Positions 7,026-61,798 of a stretch of DNA of 64,000 bases are shown one piece after another (within the stretch, counting starts at the first letter, position 1; each line of letters opens with the position of its first letter). The DNA comes from Phycisphaerae bacterium RAS1 (lineage in GTDB: Bacteria; Planctomycetota; Phycisphaerae; UBA1845; Fen-1342). The notes under the pieces were generated by a model that did not search any database, was not told the DNA's origin, and worked only from the letters and a program-made list of their open reading frames with translations. Made by a program: the position numbers and the translations under genes. The stretch lies in NCBI GenBank assembly GCA_007859745.1, contig SMLU01000001.1, positions 2,418,001 to 2,482,000 of the forward strand, given 5' to 3'.

Positions 7026-7094
7026 CCCTACAACCGCGGCTGCCGGTTTTCAACGACGCCGCGGGAGGTCCGAACCCGCCGTCGGCTTGTCTGC

Positions 7095-7191
7095 CCGAAC
7101 CCGCCGCGCCAAGCGGCGGGGTGACGTCCGCGGCACACGAGGCGCCGCTCGCCTACGATCGTCACCCCGCCGCTTGGCGCGGCGGGTTCGG
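7095..7191. repeat. 97-bp bipartite palindromic element, family A copy 1
   Basis: Left arm CCGAACCCGCCGCGCCAAGC and its inverse on the right, flanking a core with GGCGCCGCTCGC. Each arm can fold alone (CCCGCCGC-gccaa-GCGGCGGG), and the two arms can also pair with each other. It lies in the 377-bp gap between larB and the PEP-CTERM gene. Confidence 0.9.
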
Positions 7192-7228
7192 AAATCAGCC
7201 CTGCGCGGGACCGAGCCGCTCGCGACAC

Positions 7229-13418: not shown

Positions 13419-14834
13419 GGGGTCGGCATCAACTTAGTGGGTAGTTTTCAGGCGACCCTGGCTAACGGTCGCGTGTTCCAGACGCGCTCCCAGTCGCTGT
13501 TGAGGTGGGCGACGCGGAGCGAGAGGACGTTTTGGGATCCGGCCTTGGACCAGCGCATTCCGCAGCGTTTCATTCGCAGGGCGACCACGTGCTTGCAGGC
13601 CGCTTCGACCCGGCCCGAGCCGATGTCCAGGCCCATCTCTCGGAAGCGGTCATAGGCCAATCGATCGTCCTGGTTCTCGATGTAGGTGATCAGGGCTTGT
13701 AACGCCGCCCGCTTGTTCTTGGCGCGCGTGCCGCAGCGCTCGGCCTTCAACTGGTCGAGAATCGCGCGCACCTGCCCGTCCCACAGCAGCGTTTCGATCG
13801 ATTTCACCCAGCTCGCCGTTTCCGGCGTTTGCTCGCCCCCCAGGGCCCGCCCGCAGGTCCACACGTGCTCCATCGCGTGATACCAGTCCACGATGCAGAC
13901 CGCCTCTTTCAACAACCCGCCGATGTGCTCCCAGATCCACCGCGCCCCGTCGCCCAGCAGCACCACGCGCCGGGCCCGCTCCAGGCCGCAGCGACAGGCC
14001 AATTCCCAGACGAACGACACGAACGCCGCCGCGCCTTCAAACCGCACCCCGTAGCGCACTTCGCGATCCACGCCGGCGGGCTGGCCGGGCTGATCCCAAT
14101 AGCACGCCACGCACTTGGCTTCGTGCCAGCCGTCCGCCTGGTGCACCTGCACGCCGTCCACGGTCACATAGAACGTCTCCGGCGACGCCTCCGCCGGCGG
14201 CGCTTTCCACTCCGCCATGGCCGCGGCCCGTTGCTGCTCCTGCTGCGCCGCCACCCCGCCCACCCGCTCCGTCAGCCGCTCAATCGTCGCTTCGCTCAGC
14301 CGCTGACCGGTCAGCGCGTACAACGTGGACGCGGCGCTGGCAAACGTGTTCTCAATCCCCAAGAGCGCCGCCGCCTTCGCCAGACCGACGCTCTCGGCCC
14401 CCGCCCCCAACCCCACCCGCTCGTCGTACGGCAACGCCGACCGGCCGCAAGACCGGCAGCGGTAGTACGCACGCCGAATCCCGATCTGACCCATCTGCGT
14501 CGCAATCAGCTTGGGCCGCTGATCCACAAACCGCTGCGCCCCGCCGCACCCGCACACCCGGCTGGTTCCCTCATACCCCAGCTTCTGCCGCCCCAAATGA
14601 AGCTCGACCGCTCTTGCCCCGATCCGCCGAACCGCCTCCAGAACCGCCGTTTCCACCTGCGTCAAATCATCCGACAGCAAAACCCCATCCTCCCCGCAAA
14701 ACGCCAACACCTGCTCGGCAACGCTGGTAAGATCCACGTTTGGCCCTCCTTGGCCAATGGCTCGCTCAAACCCCACGCCATTGAAACCGAGGCCAGGGCC
14801 TTTGTCTTTTACCCACTAAGTTGATGCCGACCCC
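13419..14834. mobile_element. complete ISKra4-family insertion sequence
   Basis: 1416 bp bounded by perfect 25-bp terminal inverted repeats (13419-13443 starting GGGGTCGGCATCAACTTAG; 14810-14834 ending GATGCCGACCCC). Outside them is a direct repeat AAAGAGC (13412-13418 and 14835-14841), read as the target-site duplication. It contains one transposase on the minus strand. Intact ends and duplication imply recent insertion. Confidence 0.95.
13448..14776 (-). CDS. ISKra4-family transposase
   Basis: 442-aa DDE transposase. An N-terminal zinc-finger-like region (CGCGG and YYRCRSCG, about residues 74-112) is followed by the catalytic DDE core: Asp in YVTVDGVQVHQ, Asp in LLGDGARWIWEH and Glu in GSGRVEAACKH. 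The conserved tail RMKRCGMRWSKAGSQNVLSLR follows. Length and motifs fit ISKra4. The frame is intact and lies between perfect terminal repeats, so the element could be active. The first ATG (14776) gives MGFERAIGQ; an internal start a few residues on cannot be excluded. Confidence 0.93.
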   Translation of the reverse strand: MGFERAIGQGGPNVDLTSVAEQVLAFCGEDGVLLSDDLTQVETAVLEAVRRIGARAVELHLGRQKLGYEGTSRVCGCGGAQRFVDQRPKLIATQMGQIGIRRAYYRCRSCGRSALPYDERVGLGAGAESVGLAKAAALLGIENTFASAASTLYALTGQRLSEATIERLTERVGGVAAQQEQQRAAAMAEWKAPPAEASPETFYVTVDGVQVHQADGWHEAKCVACYWDQPGQPAGVDREVRYGVRFEGAAAFVSFVWELACRCGLERARRVVLLGDGARWIWEHIGGLLKEAVCIVDWYHAMEHVWTCGRALGGEQTPETASWVKSIETLLWDGQVRAILDQLKAERCGTRAKNKRAALQALITYIENQDDRLAYDRFREMGLDIGSGRVEAACKHVVALRMKRCGMRWSKAGSQNVLSLRVAHLNSDWERVWNTRPLARVA

Positions 14835-14888
14835 AAAGAGCGAGGTGGCTAAGTTTTTGGCCGACGCGGCCGGCGGGGCCGCGTTTCT

Positions 14889-14982
14889 GAAACCGCCGGG
14901 CCGAGCGGCGGGTTGACGTTCGGGAGCGAGCGGCGCCGCGCGGCCGTGGACGTTACCCCGCCGCTTGGCGCGGCGGGTTCGG
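14889..14982. repeat. bipartite palindromic element, family A copy 2
   Basis: 94 bp. The left arm is slightly diverged (AACCGCCGGGCCGAGCGGCG), the core is GAGCGAGCGGCGCCG and the right arm CCGCCGCTTGGCGCGGCGGG is intact. It lies 55 bp right of the ISKra4 element. Confidence 0.85.
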
Positions 14983-15015
14983 AAAGACGCCGCCGATCGT
15001 GACCTTCATTACACG

Positions 15016-15060
15016 CCCGGAAAAAAGTCCGGGCGGGTCGCTTGTGCGACTCGCCCGGTC
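15016..15060 (-). terminator. terminator of the small-peptide cluster, minus strand
   Basis: On the minus strand GGGCGAGTCGC pairs with GCGACCCGCCC and is followed by GGACTTTTTT. It lies about 60 nt beyond the last of the four peptide genes and would end their transcript. Confidence 0.6.
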
Positions 15061-15117
15061 GTGACTGCATTCCGGTCAGTCGGCCCCGGGGCCGACCATC
15101 GGCTGCTGTTCGAGCAC

Positions 15118-15252
15118 CTAGTTATTGGTGCCGAGCAGACCGCCAAACAGCCTGGTCAGACTGAACGTGCCCCCAATGTTGGGGATGCAGCTCGCGCCAA
15201 GGGCCATGTAGCCCGTGGCCAGCAGCACGAGTGTGGCAAACTTCTTGGACAT
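15118..15252 (-). CDS. tiny exported Cys peptide, cluster member 4
   Basis: 44 aa from ATG 15252 with GGAGA upstream; a slightly longer start (METTMSKK, 15264) is possible. MSKKFATLVLLATGYMALGA is a short basic-plus-hydrophobic export signal followed by SCIPNIGGTFSLTRLFGG. It is the last of four tandem minus-strand genes sharing the plan M-[TS]-[KR]-x, hydrophobic stretch, [GS]-C-[IL], then a 15-35-residue amphipathic tail. Not recognised as a known family. The lipobox is imperfect (LGASC), so lipidation is possible but unproven. A terminator follows at 15016-15060. Confidence 0.6.
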   Translation of the reverse strand: MSKKFATLVLLATGYMALGASCIPNIGGTFSLTRLFGGLLGTNN

Positions 15253-15371
15253 CGTTGTCTCCATTTCTTTTCGTTCGACCGCCGCTCGCACGAGGGCGAG
15301 CCGGCGGGCGGGTGTTTCAAGTACCGTGGCGCCCGCAATGCCGACGGCCTGAGCCGCCGGGCAGTCGCGGT

Positions 15372-15542
15372 TTAGCCAAACAGCTCTTCCTGGAGAACGT
15401 CCAGTCCGATGTTCAGCCAACGGGGCTGGTTGGGGAAACCGCCGTTGAAGAAACCGTCAAAGAACGAGCCAAGGCAGCCGCCCTGGAAGAGCGTCGCGCC
15501 GCCGAACAGCAGGGCGCTCATAGCCATCCACTTCTTCGTCAT
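15372..15542 (-). CDS. tiny exported Cys peptide, cluster member 3
   Basis: 56 aa from ATG 15542, preceded on its strand by GAGGAG about 9 nt away. It reads MTKKWMAMSALLFGGATLFQ, then GGCLGSFFDGFFNGGF and a tail ending LDVLQEELFG. It shares GATLFQxxGC with member 2 (GTLFQSAGC), which shows the genes are paralogues. A single Cys follows the hydrophobic stretch, and the tail is rich in Phe and Gly. Function unknown. Confidence 0.65.
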   Translation of the reverse strand: MTKKWMAMSALLFGGATLFQGGCLGSFFDGFFNGGFPNQPRWLNIGLDVLQEELFG

Positions 15543-15626
15543 GTTCTGAATCTCCTCTACCCACTCAACCGCGCGAGGCGACTTTCGAAGCCAACGCTGG
15601 GTTGGTCGGAATTCGGTTCCACTCGT

Positions 15627-15755
15627 TTAGTCAACCACGCTCAGCCAGAGCGACGTTCCGGCCAGGTCGCCCAGGAAACGGGCGATGCAGCCAGCCGACT
15701 GGAAAAGCGTGCCGGCGGCGGTGAGCGCGCCAAGCAGGATCATCTTCCGCGTCAT
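15627..15755 (-). CDS. tiny exported Cys peptide, cluster member 2
   Basis: 42 aa from ATG 15755 with a strong AAGGAG at the right distance. It reads MTRKMILLGALTAAGTLFQS, then AGCIARFLGDLAGTSLWLSV and VD. The part after the Cys is an amphipathic helix candidate ending in an acidic residue. The preceding peptide gene ends 45 nt upstream. Function unknown; paralogue of its neighbours. Confidence 0.65.
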   Translation of the reverse strand: MTRKMILLGALTAAGTLFQSAGCIARFLGDLAGTSLWLSVVD

Positions 15756-15800
15756 TCGTGAATCTCCTTTTTGATTCTTTTTGGACCTGAGCAACCCGTT

Positions 15801-15923
15801 CTAGTCGAAGTTAACCGCGACCAGAATGCGCTGCACGACCGCCTCGAGGCAGCCGTTCCCGAGCCCCAGCCCCATGACGGCGCCCGTCGTGAGGAGCAGT
15901 GCTCTCTTCCACAGTTTGGTCAT
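15801..15923 (-). CDS. tiny exported Cys peptide, cluster member 1
   Basis: 40 aa from ATG 15923 with AAAGGAGG upstream, the best ribosome site of the set. It reads MTKLWKRALLLTTGAVMGLG, then LGNGCLEAVVQRILVAVNFD. The plan is the same as the other three: basic start, hydrophobic stretch, Gly-Cys-Leu, then a helical tail ending in Asp. It is the promoter-proximal gene of the series. The 177 bp upstream to mtnA hold no other gene. Confidence 0.65.
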   Translation of the reverse strand: MTKLWKRALLLTTGAVMGLGLGNGCLEAVVQRILVAVNFD

Positions 15924-16100
15924 CGCGAGCCTCCTTTAGAGGTTCAACCATTCCTTGGTTCGGTACTACTCTGAAAGGCACCGCGCCAATCGCACCGAAC
16001 ACGGTCTGAAACGAACTTGCGATCATCGAACGGGTCGCGCCCGGAGGCGAAAACCCAGATCCGACCGCGCCACAAAATTTGGGTCGCCAGTGTAAACCCG

Positions 16101-17222
16101 TCAACACCCATTGCAACCCCTGAAACCAACTTTTTCGGCAATCTTTTCTTCCGTAACCGGTTTCAGGACCCCGTTTTCGGTCAAAATCCCCGTGATCAGG
16201 GCCGCCGGAGTCACGTCAAACGCCGGATTCAGGCACTTCACTCCCGCCGGAACCGTCCGCACGCCGAACCCCTCCGACACCTCCTGGGCGTTTCTTTGCT
16301 CGATCGGAATTCCCTGCCCGTCGGCCAGCGCCAGATCAAACGTGCTCGTCGGCGCGGCGACATAGAAAGGTATCTTGTGATGCCGCGCCGCCAGCGCCAG
16401 ACCATACGTCCCGATCTTGTTGGCCGTGTCCCCGTTCGCCGCGATCCGATCGGCCCCGACGATGACCAATTGCACGGCGCCGCTGCGCATGAGCTGCGCT
16501 GCCGCGTTGTCGCACAGCACCGTCACATCCAACCCCGCCGCCGCCAACTCGTACGCCGTCAGCCGCGCCCCCTGGAGCAGCGGGCGCGTCTCATCCGCGT
16601 AGATCCGGAATCGCCTGCCGCGCTCGTGGGCCACGTAGAGCGGCGCCAGCGCCGTTCCCCAGGCGACGGTCGCCAGCGCGCCGGCGTTGCAGTGCGTCAG
16701 CACGCCGCCTCCATCCGGAATGAGGCCCGCCCCGAGTTCGCCGATCCGCCGGCAGGCCGCCGCGTCTTCTTCAGCCATGCGGTCGGCTTCGGCCAGCAGG
16801 TGCTCCCAAGCCTCCGAAGCCGTGCGAGCCTCATGGGCCGCTTGCCTGGCGCGGCGGAGCATGCGGTCCAGCGCCCACGCCAGGTTGACGGCCGTCGGCC
16901 GCGCTGCTCGCAAAAACCCGGCCACCGATTCGACGCTCGCCACCCAGTCGGACAGCGTCGCGGCACGTACCGTCCCAGCGCCCAGGCACAAGCCATAGGC
17001 CGCTGCCACGCCGATCGCCGGCGCCCCGCGCACCCTCAGCATGCGGATGGCCTCGTGGACCTGCTCGGCCGTTCGACAGTCCAGATAGACGGTTCGCAGG
17101 GGGAGCTCCGTCTGATCCAGCAGACGCAAGCAGCCGGCGGGCCCGCCGTCCCATCGTAGCGTGGCGGGAAGACCCGCCAGCGATGGCGCAGGAGACGCGC
17201 TGAGTGTCCCGACCGAGGGCAT
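16101..17222 (-). CDS. mtnA: S-methyl-5-thioribose-1-phosphate isomerase
   Basis: Methionine-salvage enzyme converting methylthioribose-1-phosphate to methylthioribulose-1-phosphate in the cytoplasm. It has 373 aa from ATG 17222 (MPSVGTLSASP); the frame extends to 17306, but that part is low-complexity intergenic DNA. Family marks are RVRGAPAIGVAAAYGL near residue 65, the catalytic Cys in LTHCNAGALATVAWGTAL, and the catalytic Asp in VGADRIAANGDTANKIGTY. The gene could be co-transcribed with the MazG-like gene 104 nt upstream. No other salvage genes are nearby. Confidence 0.93.
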   Translation of the reverse strand: MPSVGTLSASPAPSLAGLPATLRWDGGPAGCLRLLDQTELPLRTVYLDCRTAEQVHEAIRMLRVRGAPAIGVAAAYGLCLGAGTVRAATLSDWVASVESVAGFLRAARPTAVNLAWALDRMLRRARQAAHEARTASEAWEHLLAEADRMAEEDAAACRRIGELGAGLIPDGGGVLTHCNAGALATVAWGTALAPLYVAHERGRRFRIYADETRPLLQGARLTAYELAAAGLDVTVLCDNAAAQLMRSGAVQLVIVGADRIAANGDTANKIGTYGLALAARHHKIPFYVAAPTSTFDLALADGQGIPIEQRNAQEVSEGFGVRTVPAGVKCLNPAFDVTPAALITGILTENGVLKPVTEEKIAEKVGFRGCNGC

Positions 17223-17325
17223 ACGGGGGTTGTACACGATCAGGGAAGAAGGGAACAGGGAACAGGGAACGGGTGTTGTCCGGCGCGGTCCCCTGCTCCT
17301 GCGCATGTGCCCCGTCCCCCGCCGG

Positions 17326-17619: not shown

Positions 17620-17727
17620 GCGGCGCACAGTAGCGACGAATCCGCACGGCGTGAAGCGCCCGGCGGCGTCACGCTCCATCGGGGCGCGGCCAGCATTTTC
17701 GCCGGCGCCGCCGGTAGGGCCGCTTTT

Positions 17728-17824
17728 CCGAACCCGCCGCGCCAAGCGGAGGGGTGACGTCCCCGTCCTATTTGGCGCCGCTCGCTGGCGATCGCCACCC
17801 CGCCGCTTGGCGCGGCGGGTTCGG
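17728..17824. repeat. 97-bp bipartite palindromic element, family A copy 3
   Basis: CCGAACCCGCCGCGCCAAGC arm, core GGCGCCGCTCGCTGGCG and inverse arm. Exactly 97 bp, as in copies 1, 5 and 6. Located between the MazG-like gene and the secreted protein at 17884. Confidence 0.9.
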
Positions 17825-17883
17825 ACAGATTAGCCCGCGGTGGGTTCGGGCAGACATGCCCCCCGAGCGGGCAAAATCTCTGG

Positions 17884-20428: not shown

Positions 20429-20847
20429 GAAGTCAGAAGTCGGAAGTCAGAAGTCAGAATCAAAACGCGAGGCGCAAGCGAGCGCGTCTGTCGCGTGCCA
20501 TGGGTGGATTGGCTGCGGCCTCTGGCAGCCATGCGCTTCGCCGAACCCGTCCTTCAGACGATGCAAACCGCCATGCTCGCCAGAGGCTGCGAGCATGCCA
20601 CACGCCGATGTCCCGATCGATGTGGCGACGCGTCCCGCGTTTCGTGCGGCGTCGGTCGCTTCTCCACGTGCACCGGCACACGTAGCGTCGATTGCAAGAT
20701 TAGCTGCGCCGTCCCGCCATCGCTCGTCCAACGGCGCACGGGTTGTGACCCCGTGCAGACAATCACCGGTTGGAAACCGGCGCCACAGTTGAGCAGCCGT
20801 GCTGGTGCCAGAATTCCCTCTCGCACCAGCAGCCCAACCCGCGCTAA
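20429..20847. other. repeat-rich gene-free region left of IS1380
   Basis: 420 bp without a supportable gene. It opens with a tandem AGAAGTC(A/G)GAAGTC run (20426-20455), continues with diverged palindromes around GCCTCTGGCAGCCATGC and GCATG..GCC, and ends with family E copy 1 (20736-20832). Confidence 0.6.
20736..20832. repeat. composite hairpin repeat, family E copy 1
   Basis: Three small palindromes in a row: GCACGGGTTGTGACCCCGTGC, CACCGGTTGGAAACCGG and GCTGGTGC..GCACCAGC. The same series occurs at 23223-23366. Confidence 0.75.
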
Positions 20848-22444
20848 CCCGGATATTTCATCAGTTCGTTGCTGCGTTGAAATAGACATGGCCTCGAAGC
20901 CTTGTAAACTGGGGACTTGCTAGAGGTTCGCCAGTGTTCAGGCAAGGAGGCCACGTGTGACAGAGTGTAACGGCCAGGGGTTGCTGTTTTCCAGTCTGGG
21001 GCGGCAGAAGATTGTGGGCGATTTTGCGGGTGGGCGGCTCACGACGGATGCGGGCGGGTTGCTGCTGCGGGAAGTGGATCGGCGTGTGGGCCTGGTCGAG
21101 GCGCTGGCCGGGTGTCTGACTGATCCGCGTGATCCGGCGAAGATTGTGCATGCGCAGCGGACGATGTTGGCGCAGCGGATTTTCGGCATCGCGCTGGGCT
21201 ACGAAGATCTGAACGATCACGCCACGCTGCGCAGCGATCCGCTGTTTGCGGTTCTGGCCGAGCAGACGCCTGACGCCGCGGCGCCGCTGGCCAGCGCGCC
21301 GACGCTGTGCCGGCTGGAGAATCGCGTCGATCGCAAAGCGCTGGGGCGTCTGGCGGCGGCGCTGGTCGGGCAGTTCATCGCGTCGTATGACGCGCCCCCG
21401 GCGGAACTGGTGCTGGACTTCGACGCCACGCACGACCCGCTGCATGGCAAACAGGACGGCCGCTTCTTTCACGGCTTTTACGACTGCTACTGCTTTTTGC
21501 CGCTGTACGTGTTCTGCGGCGATCGGCTGCTGGTCAGCTATCTGCGGCCCAGCAACATCGATGCGGCTCTGCACAGCGCCGCGATTCTCAAGCTGCTGGT
21601 GACGCGGCTGCGGCAGGTCTGGCCGGCGGTGCGGATCATCGTGCGCGGCGATTCGGGCTTCTGCCGCTGGCGGCTGATGCGCTGGTGCGACCGGCACGAC
21701 GTGCAGTACGTGCTGGGCCTGGCGCGCAACAAAACGCTCGAAAAACAGGTCGCACCGTGGATGGCGGCGGCCCAGGCACAATTCGAGGCCGCGAATCAGA
21801 AGGTGCGCAACTTCCACGAATTCGAGTACGCCGCGCAGACCTGGGATCGCGCGCGGCGCGTGATCGTGAAGGCCGAACATCTGCCGCAAGGCCCGAACGT
21901 CCGCTTCGTGGTCACCAACCTCATCGATCGCCGTCCGCAGCAGATCTACGACGACCTCTACACGCAGCGCGGCGAGATGGAGAATCGCATCAAGGAGCAG
22001 CAGCTCATGCTGTTCGCCGACCGAACCAGCTGCCACGCGTTCATCGCCAATCAATTCCGGCTGCTGCTGTCGAGCGCCGCCTACGTGCTGGTCGAGCACC
22101 TGCGCCGCACCGCGCTGCTCGACACCGAACTGGCGCAGGCCCAGACCGACACCATCCGGCTCAGGCTCTTCAAGGTCGCCGCGCGGATCGTCACCAGCGT
22201 TCGGCGAGTCGTGCTGCACCTGTCGAGCGCCTATCCCCTGCACGAACTATTCGCCCGCATCCTCGCCCGCCTACGCACCGGCCCGCCCCGGCGACCCGCC
22301 CCGGCGTAGCCCCCAACAGCCCGAATCGCGACCGGGGGTAAGGGGGCGCTGCGCGCCAAAACCGCTCAAACCACACAAACAACCCACGCCAACCCGAACG
22401 CACAGCAACCGGCAGCCCAAGCGACAACTGATGAAATATGCGGG
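20848..22444. mobile_element. complete IS1380-family insertion sequence
   Basis: 1597 bp with terminal inverted repeats CCCGGATATTTCATCAGTT (left) and CCCGCATATTTCATCAGTT (right, read on the minus strand). They are flanked by the 4-bp direct repeat CTAA (20844-20847 and 22445-22448), the duplication size known for IS1380. One intact transposase. Confidence 0.93.
20957..22309 (+). CDS. IS1380-family transposase
   Basis: 450-aa DDE transposase starting at GTG 20957, with AAGGAGG eight bases upstream. The conserved start (GGRLTTDAGGLLLREVD) and the core are visible: Asp in LVLDFDATHDPLHG, Asp in IIVRGDSGFCRW and Glu in YTQRGEMENRIKEQQ. HAFIANQFRLLLSSAAYVL in the C-terminal part is typical. The frame is intact between intact terminal repeats, so the element may be mobile. 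A large reverse-strand ORF over it is a shadow. Confidence 0.94.
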   Translation: MTECNGQGLLFSSLGRQKIVGDFAGGRLTTDAGGLLLREVDRRVGLVEALAGCLTDPRDPAKIVHAQRTMLAQRIFGIALGYEDLNDHATLRSDPLFAVLAEQTPDAAAPLASAPTLCRLENRVDRKALGRLAAALVGQFIASYDAPPAELVLDFDATHDPLHGKQDGRFFHGFYDCYCFLPLYVFCGDRLLVSYLRPSNIDAALHSAAILKLLVTRLRQVWPAVRIIVRGDSGFCRWRLMRWCDRHDVQYVLGLARNKTLEKQVAPWMAAAQAQFEAANQKVRNFHEFEYAAQTWDRARRVIVKAEHLPQGPNVRFVVTNLIDRRPQQIYDDLYTQRGEMENRIKEQQLMLFADRTSCHAFIANQFRLLLSSAAYVLVEHLRRTALLDTELAQAQTDTIRLRLFKVAARIVTSVRRVVLHLSSAYPLHELFARILARLRTGPPRRPAPA

Positions 22445-26634: not shown

Positions 26635-27030
26635 TTGGTGCTCTCGCTATGTAAATAGAATGCCCGTTCCCGGCCCACGGCGTGGCCCGAATCTGCCCAG
26701 CGCAGCTTCAAAACTCCTGCCGTACTCCGGGTTCACGTCATTCTACCACGACCGGCCGGGGCCTGTCTCGGAAAAAATCAGACCCGGGCGGGGCGGGGCG
26801 CATCGCGATCGCGCTTGCGATCGGCGGCGTCTTTCCGAACCCGCCGCGCCGAGCGGCGGGTTGAGTAGCGCTAGCGATCGGCGCTCTACAGGCCGCGGAC
26901 GTCACCCCGCCGCCGCTTGGTGCGGCGGGTTCGGACGGATCGCCACCGGAACCGGATGCACCCGGAGCGGCGGGTTGCGGCGGGTGCGGTTAACGGGATA
27001 ATGCAGAACTTCGGCGAACCAGCCGAATTT
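26635..27030. other. gene-free region between the large secreted-protein gene and tRNA-Ser
   Basis: 396 bp. It contains family A copy 4 (26835-26934). The remainder shows no gene or clear promoter. Confidence 0.6.
26835..26934. repeat. bipartite palindromic element, family A copy 4
   Basis: 100 bp. The left arm has one change (CCGAGCGGCGGGTTG), and the right arm has three extra bases (CCGCCGCCGCTTGGTGCGGC). The core is diverged. It lies 96 bp before tRNA-Ser. Confidence 0.85.
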
Positions 27031-28327: not shown

Positions 28328-28672
28328 CGTTCCGTCGCACGATGATCTTTCGTGGGGAGCATCGGCCTCTGGCCGGTGCGAACGCGCGTCAAGTTCGGGC
28401 GCCGCGTGGCAGCCGCGGCAAACTGGACCGGAACCGACGACGGGCGTGGCCAAAGTACTTGGCAGAAGCCGCGGGCCGGGCCGTTTTTCCGAACCCACCG
28501 CGCCAAGCGGCGGGTTGACGATCGGAGACGAGCGGCGCCGAATAGCCCGGGGACGTCAACCCGCCGCTTGGCGCGGCGGGTTCGGACAGATATGCCCGCC
28601 GAGCCTGCCAGAATCTCTCGTCACCCCGCCGACGATGTAGCCGCCCGAGTGAACTCGCCGTGAACGGGGCGG
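28328..28672. other. gene-free region between wecB and the ECF sigma gene
   Basis: 345 bp. It holds a fragment related to family J (GGGGAGCATCGGCCTCTGGC, about 28352-28378) and family A copy 5 (28489-28585). No ORF supported. Confidence 0.6.
28489..28585. repeat. 97-bp bipartite palindromic element, family A copy 5
   Basis: CCGAACCCACCGCGCCAAGC arm (one change), core GAGACGAGCGGCGCCG and intact right arm. Exactly 97 bp. Confidence 0.9.
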
Positions 28673-45763: not shown

Positions 45764-46065
45764 CGACCGTACGCCGGATAATCGCGGCGGTTCGCACATT
45801 TTTCGACGGTTTCGGGCTGGTCAGACGCCGGCGGCCGGGTCTTTCCGAACCCGCCGCGCCAAGCGGCGGGGTGACCATCGCAGAAGAGCGGCGGCACCCA
45901 AGGCCGGGGCGTCACCCCGCCGCTCGGCGCGGCGGGTTCGGACAGCCAAGCCTGCCAAGCGCGCAAAAAGCGCTGGCGGTACTCGCCTCGGCACCCGCAC
46001 CCACCGCGCGGCGCGACAACCCGCCAGAGGCCGGTCCCCCTGATTTCCGCTATGATGCCTGTCCC
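45764..46065. other. gene-free region upstream of miaB
   Basis: 302 bp. Family A copy 6 occupies 45845-45941. An ORF extension of miaB through this stretch is rejected because it crosses the repeat. No promoter was recognised. Confidence 0.6.
45845..45941. repeat. 97-bp bipartite palindromic element, family A copy 6
   Basis: CCGAACCCGCCGCGCCAAGC arm, core GAAGAGCGGCGGCACC, right arm with one change (CCGCTCGGCGCGGCGGG). Exactly 97 bp. Confidence 0.9.
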
Positions 46066-61461: not shown

Positions 61462-61798
61462 GCACGTTCTCCTCTTTCGAGAGGTTATCGGCCATCCTGG
61501 CGCCTGGAGTTAAGTGTCGTCCATGAAGCTGCTTATGGAGACTACCGGCCGGCGTTCGTGGACGCAACGGCCGTGGGACCCTTCGTCGGAGCCGGTTCTG
61601 TCCGAACCCGCCGCGCCAAGCGGCGGGTTGACGTCCCGGGCCCGCGTGGCGCCGCTCGCTCGCAGTCCAAGCGCTTGGATTTCGCGTTGAGCTCGTAGAA
61701 AACCGCGCCGCAAGCTGCAATGGAGACTTGTAGAGTGGGCACTGCCCGCCATTCAATGTCCATCACGCGACGGATGGAATTGGTGGGCGATGCCCACC
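61462..61798. other. gene-free region upstream of ku
   Basis: 337 bp. It contains the left half of a family A element (61602-61632 with its core to about 61670) and an inverted repeat with GTGGGCACTGCCCGCC and GGTGGGCGATGCCCACC ends (about 61735-61801), whose right end abuts the next stop codon. Confidence 0.6.
61602..61632. repeat. left half of a family A element
   Basis: CCGAACCCGCCGCGCCAAGC then GGCGGGTTGAC, followed by a core with GGCGCCGCTCGCTCGC; the right arm is missing. Confidence 0.75.

Follow-up and report, generated by a model that had tools for sequence, protein, structure and literature searches.

In E. coli, the genes of the entericidins EcnA and EcnB lie side by side, and the Braun lipoprotein Lpp is a small, major outer-membrane lipoprotein. 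Enterococcal pheromones are peptides cut from the signal stretches of lipoproteins. PMC7296081 describes Atu8019, an entericidin-type lipoprotein of Agrobacterium, as a 53-residue precursor with a mature part of 32 residues and a consensus lipobox. The GMSC metagenome catalogue (PMC11364881) contains uncharacterised smORF families that are conserved, small, of secreted type, and without function.

The locus described here consists of four tandem genes (P1-P4) in a 64-kb stretch of Planctomycetota DNA, hereafter the window. It is an operon of tiny lipoprotein-like genes, of a known general kind and undescribed in Pfam, NCBIfam, and PADLOC, and it is unusual for its shortness, the number of its products, and its RNA leader. 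P1-P4 resemble entericidins A and B by their precursor size, the tiny mature part following a lipid-type cysteine, and the adjacency of related genes. They differ from them by their four dissimilar mature parts, conserved leader, and address behind mtnA, and by having no match at E<=1 in Pfam or NCBIfam, entericidin families included; PADLOC, which covers anti-phage defence, likewise returns no match to P1-P4 at E<=1. Atu8019 is reported to have a consensus lipobox (PMC7296081), whereas P1-P4 mostly do not have a strict one. P1-P4 also fall in the small-lipoprotein size class of Lpp and may, like it, be abundant and structural, but their predicted mature parts, with 16-34 residues, could not form a coiled coil long enough to reach the cell wall, and no profile match is found. 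Compared with enterococcal pheromones, the tail behind the cysteine is also conserved in P1-P4, and no receptor genes are seen nearby. The GMSC families (PMC11364881) are akin to P1-P4 as conserved secreted-type small proteins; for P1-P4, the present analysis also resolves the operon, its leader, and its synteny.

Table 1. Features of the P1-P4 locus and its surroundings, in window coordinates.
Feature	Coordinates	Strand	Description
mtnA	16101..17306	minus	S-methyl-5-thioribose-1-phosphate isomerase; conserved upstream neighbour of P1-P4
Promoter-like site	16089..16116	minus	TTGCAA-16 nt-TACACT; -35 part overlapping the 3' end of mtnA
Conserved 5' leader	15924..16071	minus	GGCGCGGTC...AAAGGAGGCTC; ~150 nt; three proposed stems; model core 16071-15969
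P1	15801..15923	minus	40-aa Cys peptide, predicted exported; 16 aa from Cys onward (CLEAVVQRILVAVNFD); conserved tail QRILVAVxFD
P2	15627..15755	minus	42-aa Cys peptide, predicted exported; block LGDxxGDxxxLxxxD conserved after Cys
P3	15372..15542	minus	56-aa Cys peptide, predicted exported; NxGWPxxNRWLNxxIDVLxEELFG; best conserved of the set
P4	15118..15252	minus	44-aa Cys peptide, predicted exported; ALGxxC-PNIG, variable tail; least conserved of the set
Intrinsic terminator after P4	15029..15058	minus	12 pairs, one mismatch, -24.1 kcal/mol, then ACTTTTTT
ISKra4-family insertion sequence	13419..14834	minus	transposase 13448-14776; perfect 25-bp inverted repeats; complete-looking

P1-P4 are real, conserved protein-coding genes. 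They had been proposed, in a sequence-only reading of the window, as a cluster of four exported cysteine peptides on the minus strand; the positions and lengths then given (40, 42, 56, and 44 codons; Table 1) are correct, as are the respective ribosome sites (TAAAGGAGG, AAGGAG, GAGGAG, and GGAGA), the G/S-C-L/I that closes each hydrophobic stretch, and the nesting of two ORFs, P2 and P4, within longer frames that start at TTG (55 and 100 residues). A filter for the common plan of the four (an ATG start with a ribosome site, K/R early on, a hydrophobic stretch free of charges, Cys at 17-32, and a length of 33-60 residues) returns only P1-P4 from both strands of the window. Over 40 dinucleotide shuffles of the window it returns one match in total (mean 0.025 per window) and never two clustered; the filter was designed with P1-P4 already known, and its margin over the shuffles is large. 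The same reading took P2 and P3 for a pair of paralogues on the strength of a shared GxTLFQxxGC. A common core, TLFQ-x(1,2)-GC, is present, but the full motif is inexact in both (AGTLFQSAGC in P2, GATLFQGGC in P3). The core lies in the signal stretch, and a similar FQ..C recurs in P5 and P6 (see below) and in other small ORFs of these genomes, so that P2 and P3 are not marked out as a pair by it.

Small ORFs combining an FQ..GC or FQ..SC signal stretch with a short tail are found elsewhere in the order, at L159 (1514-2585), where four small cysteine ORFs stand in tandem, and at L156, L158, L160, and L162-L166. Small lipoprotein-like genes with an FQ..C stretch possibly form a large unrecognised class in this order.

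The family that had been postulated has homologues in relatives, with conserved residues and the same gene order. Searched as a single sequence, P3 is matched at E<=0.001 by 20 of 101 genomes; one is the source genome, and the matches in the remaining 19 have identities of 42-68%. The DNA around these 19 matches harbors four small ORFs ordered P1-P2-P3-P4 and individually preceded by a ribosome site; the ORF filter used on these loci skipped P1 in L042, L043, and L055 and P4 in L051 and L055, and P1 was recovered later at two of the three (in G020, and in G001, where it is cut by the contig end). With a P3 profile, 24 of the 114 genomes of the order match at E<=1e-5, among them 19 of the 27 in the window's own family (f1). 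Families f4 (G039, G045, G048), f5 (G030), and f6 (G031) also have recognisable sets of P1-P4, whose tails end in a similar way. P1-P4 follow mtnA, with order and strand kept, in four families of a single order. Of the 25 best P3 matches, 22 lie on the contig that carries mtnA, all 22 at 590-908 nt downstream of it and on the same strand; the remaining three are on other contigs, and one of them, in G014, is false. This match (E 4.7e-5), the one looked into among the weaker profile matches (E 5e-5 to 0.05), belongs to a different small lipoprotein-like protein whose signal stretch is similar. In 293 genomes from other classes of the phylum, P3 has just three weak matches (E 0.003-0.04), all rejected: one falls within a 917-residue frame, one within a 127-residue frame, and one contains stops.

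The set is useful but dispensable. Eight of the 27 genomes of family f1 have no P3 match at E<=1e-5 (some of these assemblies are incomplete). On an mtnA tree of 28 rows, which is poorly resolved, the presence label changes at least four times and clusters no more than in shuffles; this label counts G042 as "absent" despite the P2-like peptide present there. It is these P3-less family genomes and unclustered changes that point to dispensability. In two genomes without P1-P4 behind mtnA, G009 and G025, a different 47-residue cysteine peptide (tail ...TNILEDVGVLPG) is found upstream of P5 (L139, L146), and G013 has a similar small cysteine peptide (...TNILEHFNVLNGY) upstream of mtnA (L051 3067-3231).

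The reading frames are under selection. Over all pairs, many of which are divergent at silent sites (mean pS 0.57-0.60), pN/pS is clearly below 1 in the coding frame alone, as had been expected of true genes: it amounts to 0.60 for P1, 0.68 for P2, 0.56 for P3, and 0.78 for P4, against 0.95, 0.95, 0.97, and 0.85 in frame +1 of the same alignments and 1.43, 1.36, 1.44, and 1.21 in frame +2. P4 is the weakest case (0.78 versus 0.85). The sole close pair, G016/G026, which differs by few changes, gives dN/dS values of ~0.17 (P1), 0.1 (P2), 0.52 (P3), and 0.65 (P4): P1 and P2 are tightly constrained in this pair and P3 and P4 mildly, and overall P4 is the least held. Some rows were left out of the alignments, namely L057, which nearly duplicates L056, from A1-A4 and A6, and L059 from A4 and A6; A5 comprises nine rows, from the loci first read.

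The four genes are framed as one apparent operon. The suggestion that they are made from one transcript is supported by the promoter-like site, the leader, and the terminator that bracket them (Table 1), the last of which had also been called from the sequence and is found where expected, after P4. A -10 form TA[CAG]ACT occurs at 14 of 19 loci, with near variants at four and none at one (L051, in G013). The consensus scans list neither the promoter-like site, which has 8 of 12 matches where 9 are needed, nor the terminator.

The leader behind mtnA is a candidate structured RNA. Its 20-pair structure was drawn by hand from the same 14 aligned leaders that were used to test it; five of the 19 leaders (L045, L051, L059, L147, L171) were too divergent and were excluded from A11 and A12. 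In the compensatory test on the 14 leaders, 84.1% of cells are paired, a share reached in 0 of 500 shuffles, versus 77.2% with shuffled partners and 27-46% when the partners are slid. Cells changed on both sides number 22 against 9.2 expected (0 of 500 shuffles), and pairs with changes on both sides 10 of 20 against 6.2 expected (17 of 500). These compensatory changes are mostly located in two stems, the third and fourth helices as counted, of which the third pairs in 69.5% of cells. The RNAalifold consensus overlaps partially with the drawn structure; both sides change in six of its 16 pairs, and its covariation term is small (-0.74). Single-sequence folds differ (z -2.5 to +1.8): the window leader alone is not exceptionally stable (z -0.42), and that of L051 folds worse than its shuffles.

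Searched in 61 genomes, the leader model has its 17 best matches (all E<0.01) at 87-100 nt beyond the mtnA match, three of them (G018, G001, G017), including the top score, in sequences outside model building; one more match (E 0.0099) is not at an mtnA flank. In the eight genomes of the family that have no true P3, the mtnA flank is devoid of matches, in a search whose filters lose weak matches. G013 and G020, which both have P1-P4, gave no flank match in this search, and that of G020 was found later at 24.4 bits. No clear leader is picked up by the model at the f4, f5, and f6 loci, where its best score is 13.4 bits (E 1). Rfam, applied to both strands of window positions 15000-16200, returns a sole match of 13.5 bits (cut-off 82), on the opposite strand.

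In relatives, P1-P4 are followed by a second unit formed by P5 (~70 residues) and P6 (~90 residues), which possess a similar signal stretch and four extra cysteines each. P5 is matched at E<=0.1 in 53 of 61 genomes and P6 in 57 of 61, some of them weakly, and a TTG box with a TATACT box after it stands upstream of P5 in 11 of the 14 stretches inspected. P6 leads to 25 named loci, whose titles read Phycisphaerae or Phycisphaerales in 19 cases and Planctomycetota, Planctomycetia, or planctomycete in the others. Where a single contig carries both genes, P6 and mtnA are linked in 39 of 43 genomes (a count over 56 of the 57 P6-matching genomes, G055 being left out), and the linkage holds even where the gap has no room for P1-P4, as in G002, G014, and G021. 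In two P6 orthologues (L124 5932-6204 and L127 5986-6258), both cysteines of NPC-x5-C are lost together and CxxPPxC is kept. This joint loss suggests that the two cysteines bind each other, and two local disulfides in P6 are thereby hinted at.

In the window's genome, P5-P6 are located ~410 kb away from P1-P4. The place they occupy downstream of P4 in relatives is taken by the ISKra4-family element of Table 1, and a relict of an ISKra4 transposase (37 residues, 76% identical) lies ~150 nt upstream of the displaced P5 (L135 9281-9391, 9538-10072). Both broken ends carry ISKra4 sequence, and the simplest reading of the split would be an insertion-sequence-linked rearrangement. Other repeats are present as well. 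A 710-bp segment (window 20844-21553) has a 99.4% identical duplicate in the same genome (L135 13554-14263) and is perhaps a recent mobile element. Among the matches listed, a dispersed repeat of ~70-200 nt occurs on both strands of the window at 7084-7194, 14867-14989, 17706-17845, 26822-26940, 28438-28620, 45813-45960, and 61597-61667, and again several times in L135, also among the matches listed; an ARAGORN call for tRNA-Pro at 7052-7148 overlaps one of these copies and may be false.

The two AlphaFold models, for P3 and P6, have low confidence (one at pLDDT 64.8, the other at 58.6), too low to support a fold search, and are uninformative on assembly, that of P3 placing low-confidence helices at 3-20, 23-33, and 41-55. 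Pfam searches with the 19 P3 rows and with the P6 rows give just unrelated single-row matches (E 0.018-0.05, three of them for P3), and the P3 and P6 profiles have one chance match among solved structures (E 0.87) and none that is credible.

The explanation we favour, with belief and doubt in about equal parts, is that P1-P4 form an operon of four genes whose products are exported as ultra-short lipopeptides and act as an envelope set. Most confidently, the K/R start and the hydrophobic stretch would route each peptide through the Sec pathway. The conserved cysteine would then be lipidated and LspA would cut before it, leaving, for the window peptides, lipopeptides of 16, 20, 34, and 23 residues. 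Their short tails would stay on or in the membrane surface as a matched set of Lpp or entericidin size, structural or bilayer-modifying, rather than act as diffusible signals. Least confidently, the leader would set the amount of the peptide set that is made. That the four act jointly we infer from their fixed order, their joint absence, and their one apparent transcript.

Export and lipidation of the cysteine are supported by several features, and lipidation is probable. P1-P4 display the charged start followed by a hydrophobic stretch that is expected in the lipoprotein pathway. The cysteine is invariant in P1 (16/16 rows), P2 (19/19), and P3 (19/19), and is the sole feature common to their few invariant columns; in P4, it falls within the expected range in 16 of 16 rows but not in one column. 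The genome encodes the signal peptidase II LspA (PF01252, 103.3 bits against a cut-off of 25). The cysteine of P1-P3 is separated from the conserved tail by a variable distance, between one and about twenty residues, which is what an anchor with a tether would show. A strict lipobox, [LVI][ASTVIG][GAS]C, is rare, found in 2 of 16 P1 rows, 4 of 19 P2, 1 of 19 P3, 0 of 16 P4, 0 of 9 P5, and 6 of 13 P6, and the residue before the cysteine of P4 is N in 10 of 16 rows; relaxed lipoboxes, however, occur in some phyla. Despite this rarity, the invariant cysteine of P1-P3, the variable linkers, and LspA together favour lipidation.

The same rarity is the starting point of a rival in which P1-P4 are uncleaved membrane microproteins, the hydrophobic stretch being a transmembrane helix and the cysteine serving for disulfide or redox chemistry with no lipid. 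We consider it unlikely, though worth keeping in sight: the four further cysteines of P5 and of P6 agree with it, and the joint cysteine loss in the L124 and L127 P6 orthologues indicates that cysteine pairs matter in this group. P1-P3, however, have a single conserved cysteine at a variable spacing from the conserved tail. The residue before it is G in 14 of 16 P1 rows and in 18 of 19 P3 rows, again at odds with this rival, as are the three P4 rows that keep a cysteine although it is shifted by two residues.

The gene neighbourhood bears on what lipopeptides of this kind might do. P1-P4 are flanked by mtnA upstream and, downstream, by a PQQ_2/BamB-like propeller protein or by lactate-utilisation genes (CCG/LUD/LutB). 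Among the flanking genes examined, with five of their proteins scanned, there is neither a modification or transport gene of the RiPP type beside P1-P4 nor an enzyme, receptor, protease, or transporter as a conserved neighbour, which speaks against modified peptides and against signalling cassettes. It weighs in particular on the proposal that the peptides are signals or pheromones, with either the mature tail or the signal stretch, once released, carrying the message. Their small size, the several related tandem products, and the conserved extreme C-termini (FD, ID, ELFG) are what such signals could look like; their tails, however, are well conserved between genera, and pheromones usually diversify, making this proposal improbable.

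Slightly more doubtful still are membrane-active toxins, either bacteriocins or the toxins of type I toxin-antitoxin systems, which would account for peptides that are short and hydrophobic or amphipathic, for their strong ribosome sites, and for the conserved leader. The single fixed chromosomal site behind mtnA and the stable gene order do not fit them, and a signal stretch with a conserved cysteine is atypical of type I toxins. No close relative of P3 was confirmed in viral contigs by a search sensitive to close relatives alone, which, together with the absence of a PADLOC match, further counts against them. Chance ORFs or a decaying region have next to no probability, with nothing in their favour but the shortness of the ORFs and a weaker constraint on P4, and are refuted by the conserved frames, gene order, selection, leader covariation, and shuffle rate.

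It is possible, though for now a tentative proposal, that the four ultra-short lipopeptides, or six when P5 and P6 are counted, are produced from an operon under leader control and jointly constitute a single structure at the membrane surface, a new envelope assembly peculiar to this order of Phycisphaerae, with the leader as a new cis-regulatory RNA. The order and the frames of P1-P4 are kept in four families of an uncultured order, yet no family represents them in the libraries searched. They demonstrate that genes below annotation length can be found by reading raw sequence, and the leader contributes a candidate structured RNA whose position behind mtnA is fixed. For the Planctomycetota, P1-P4 offer a direct handle on the biology of the envelope.
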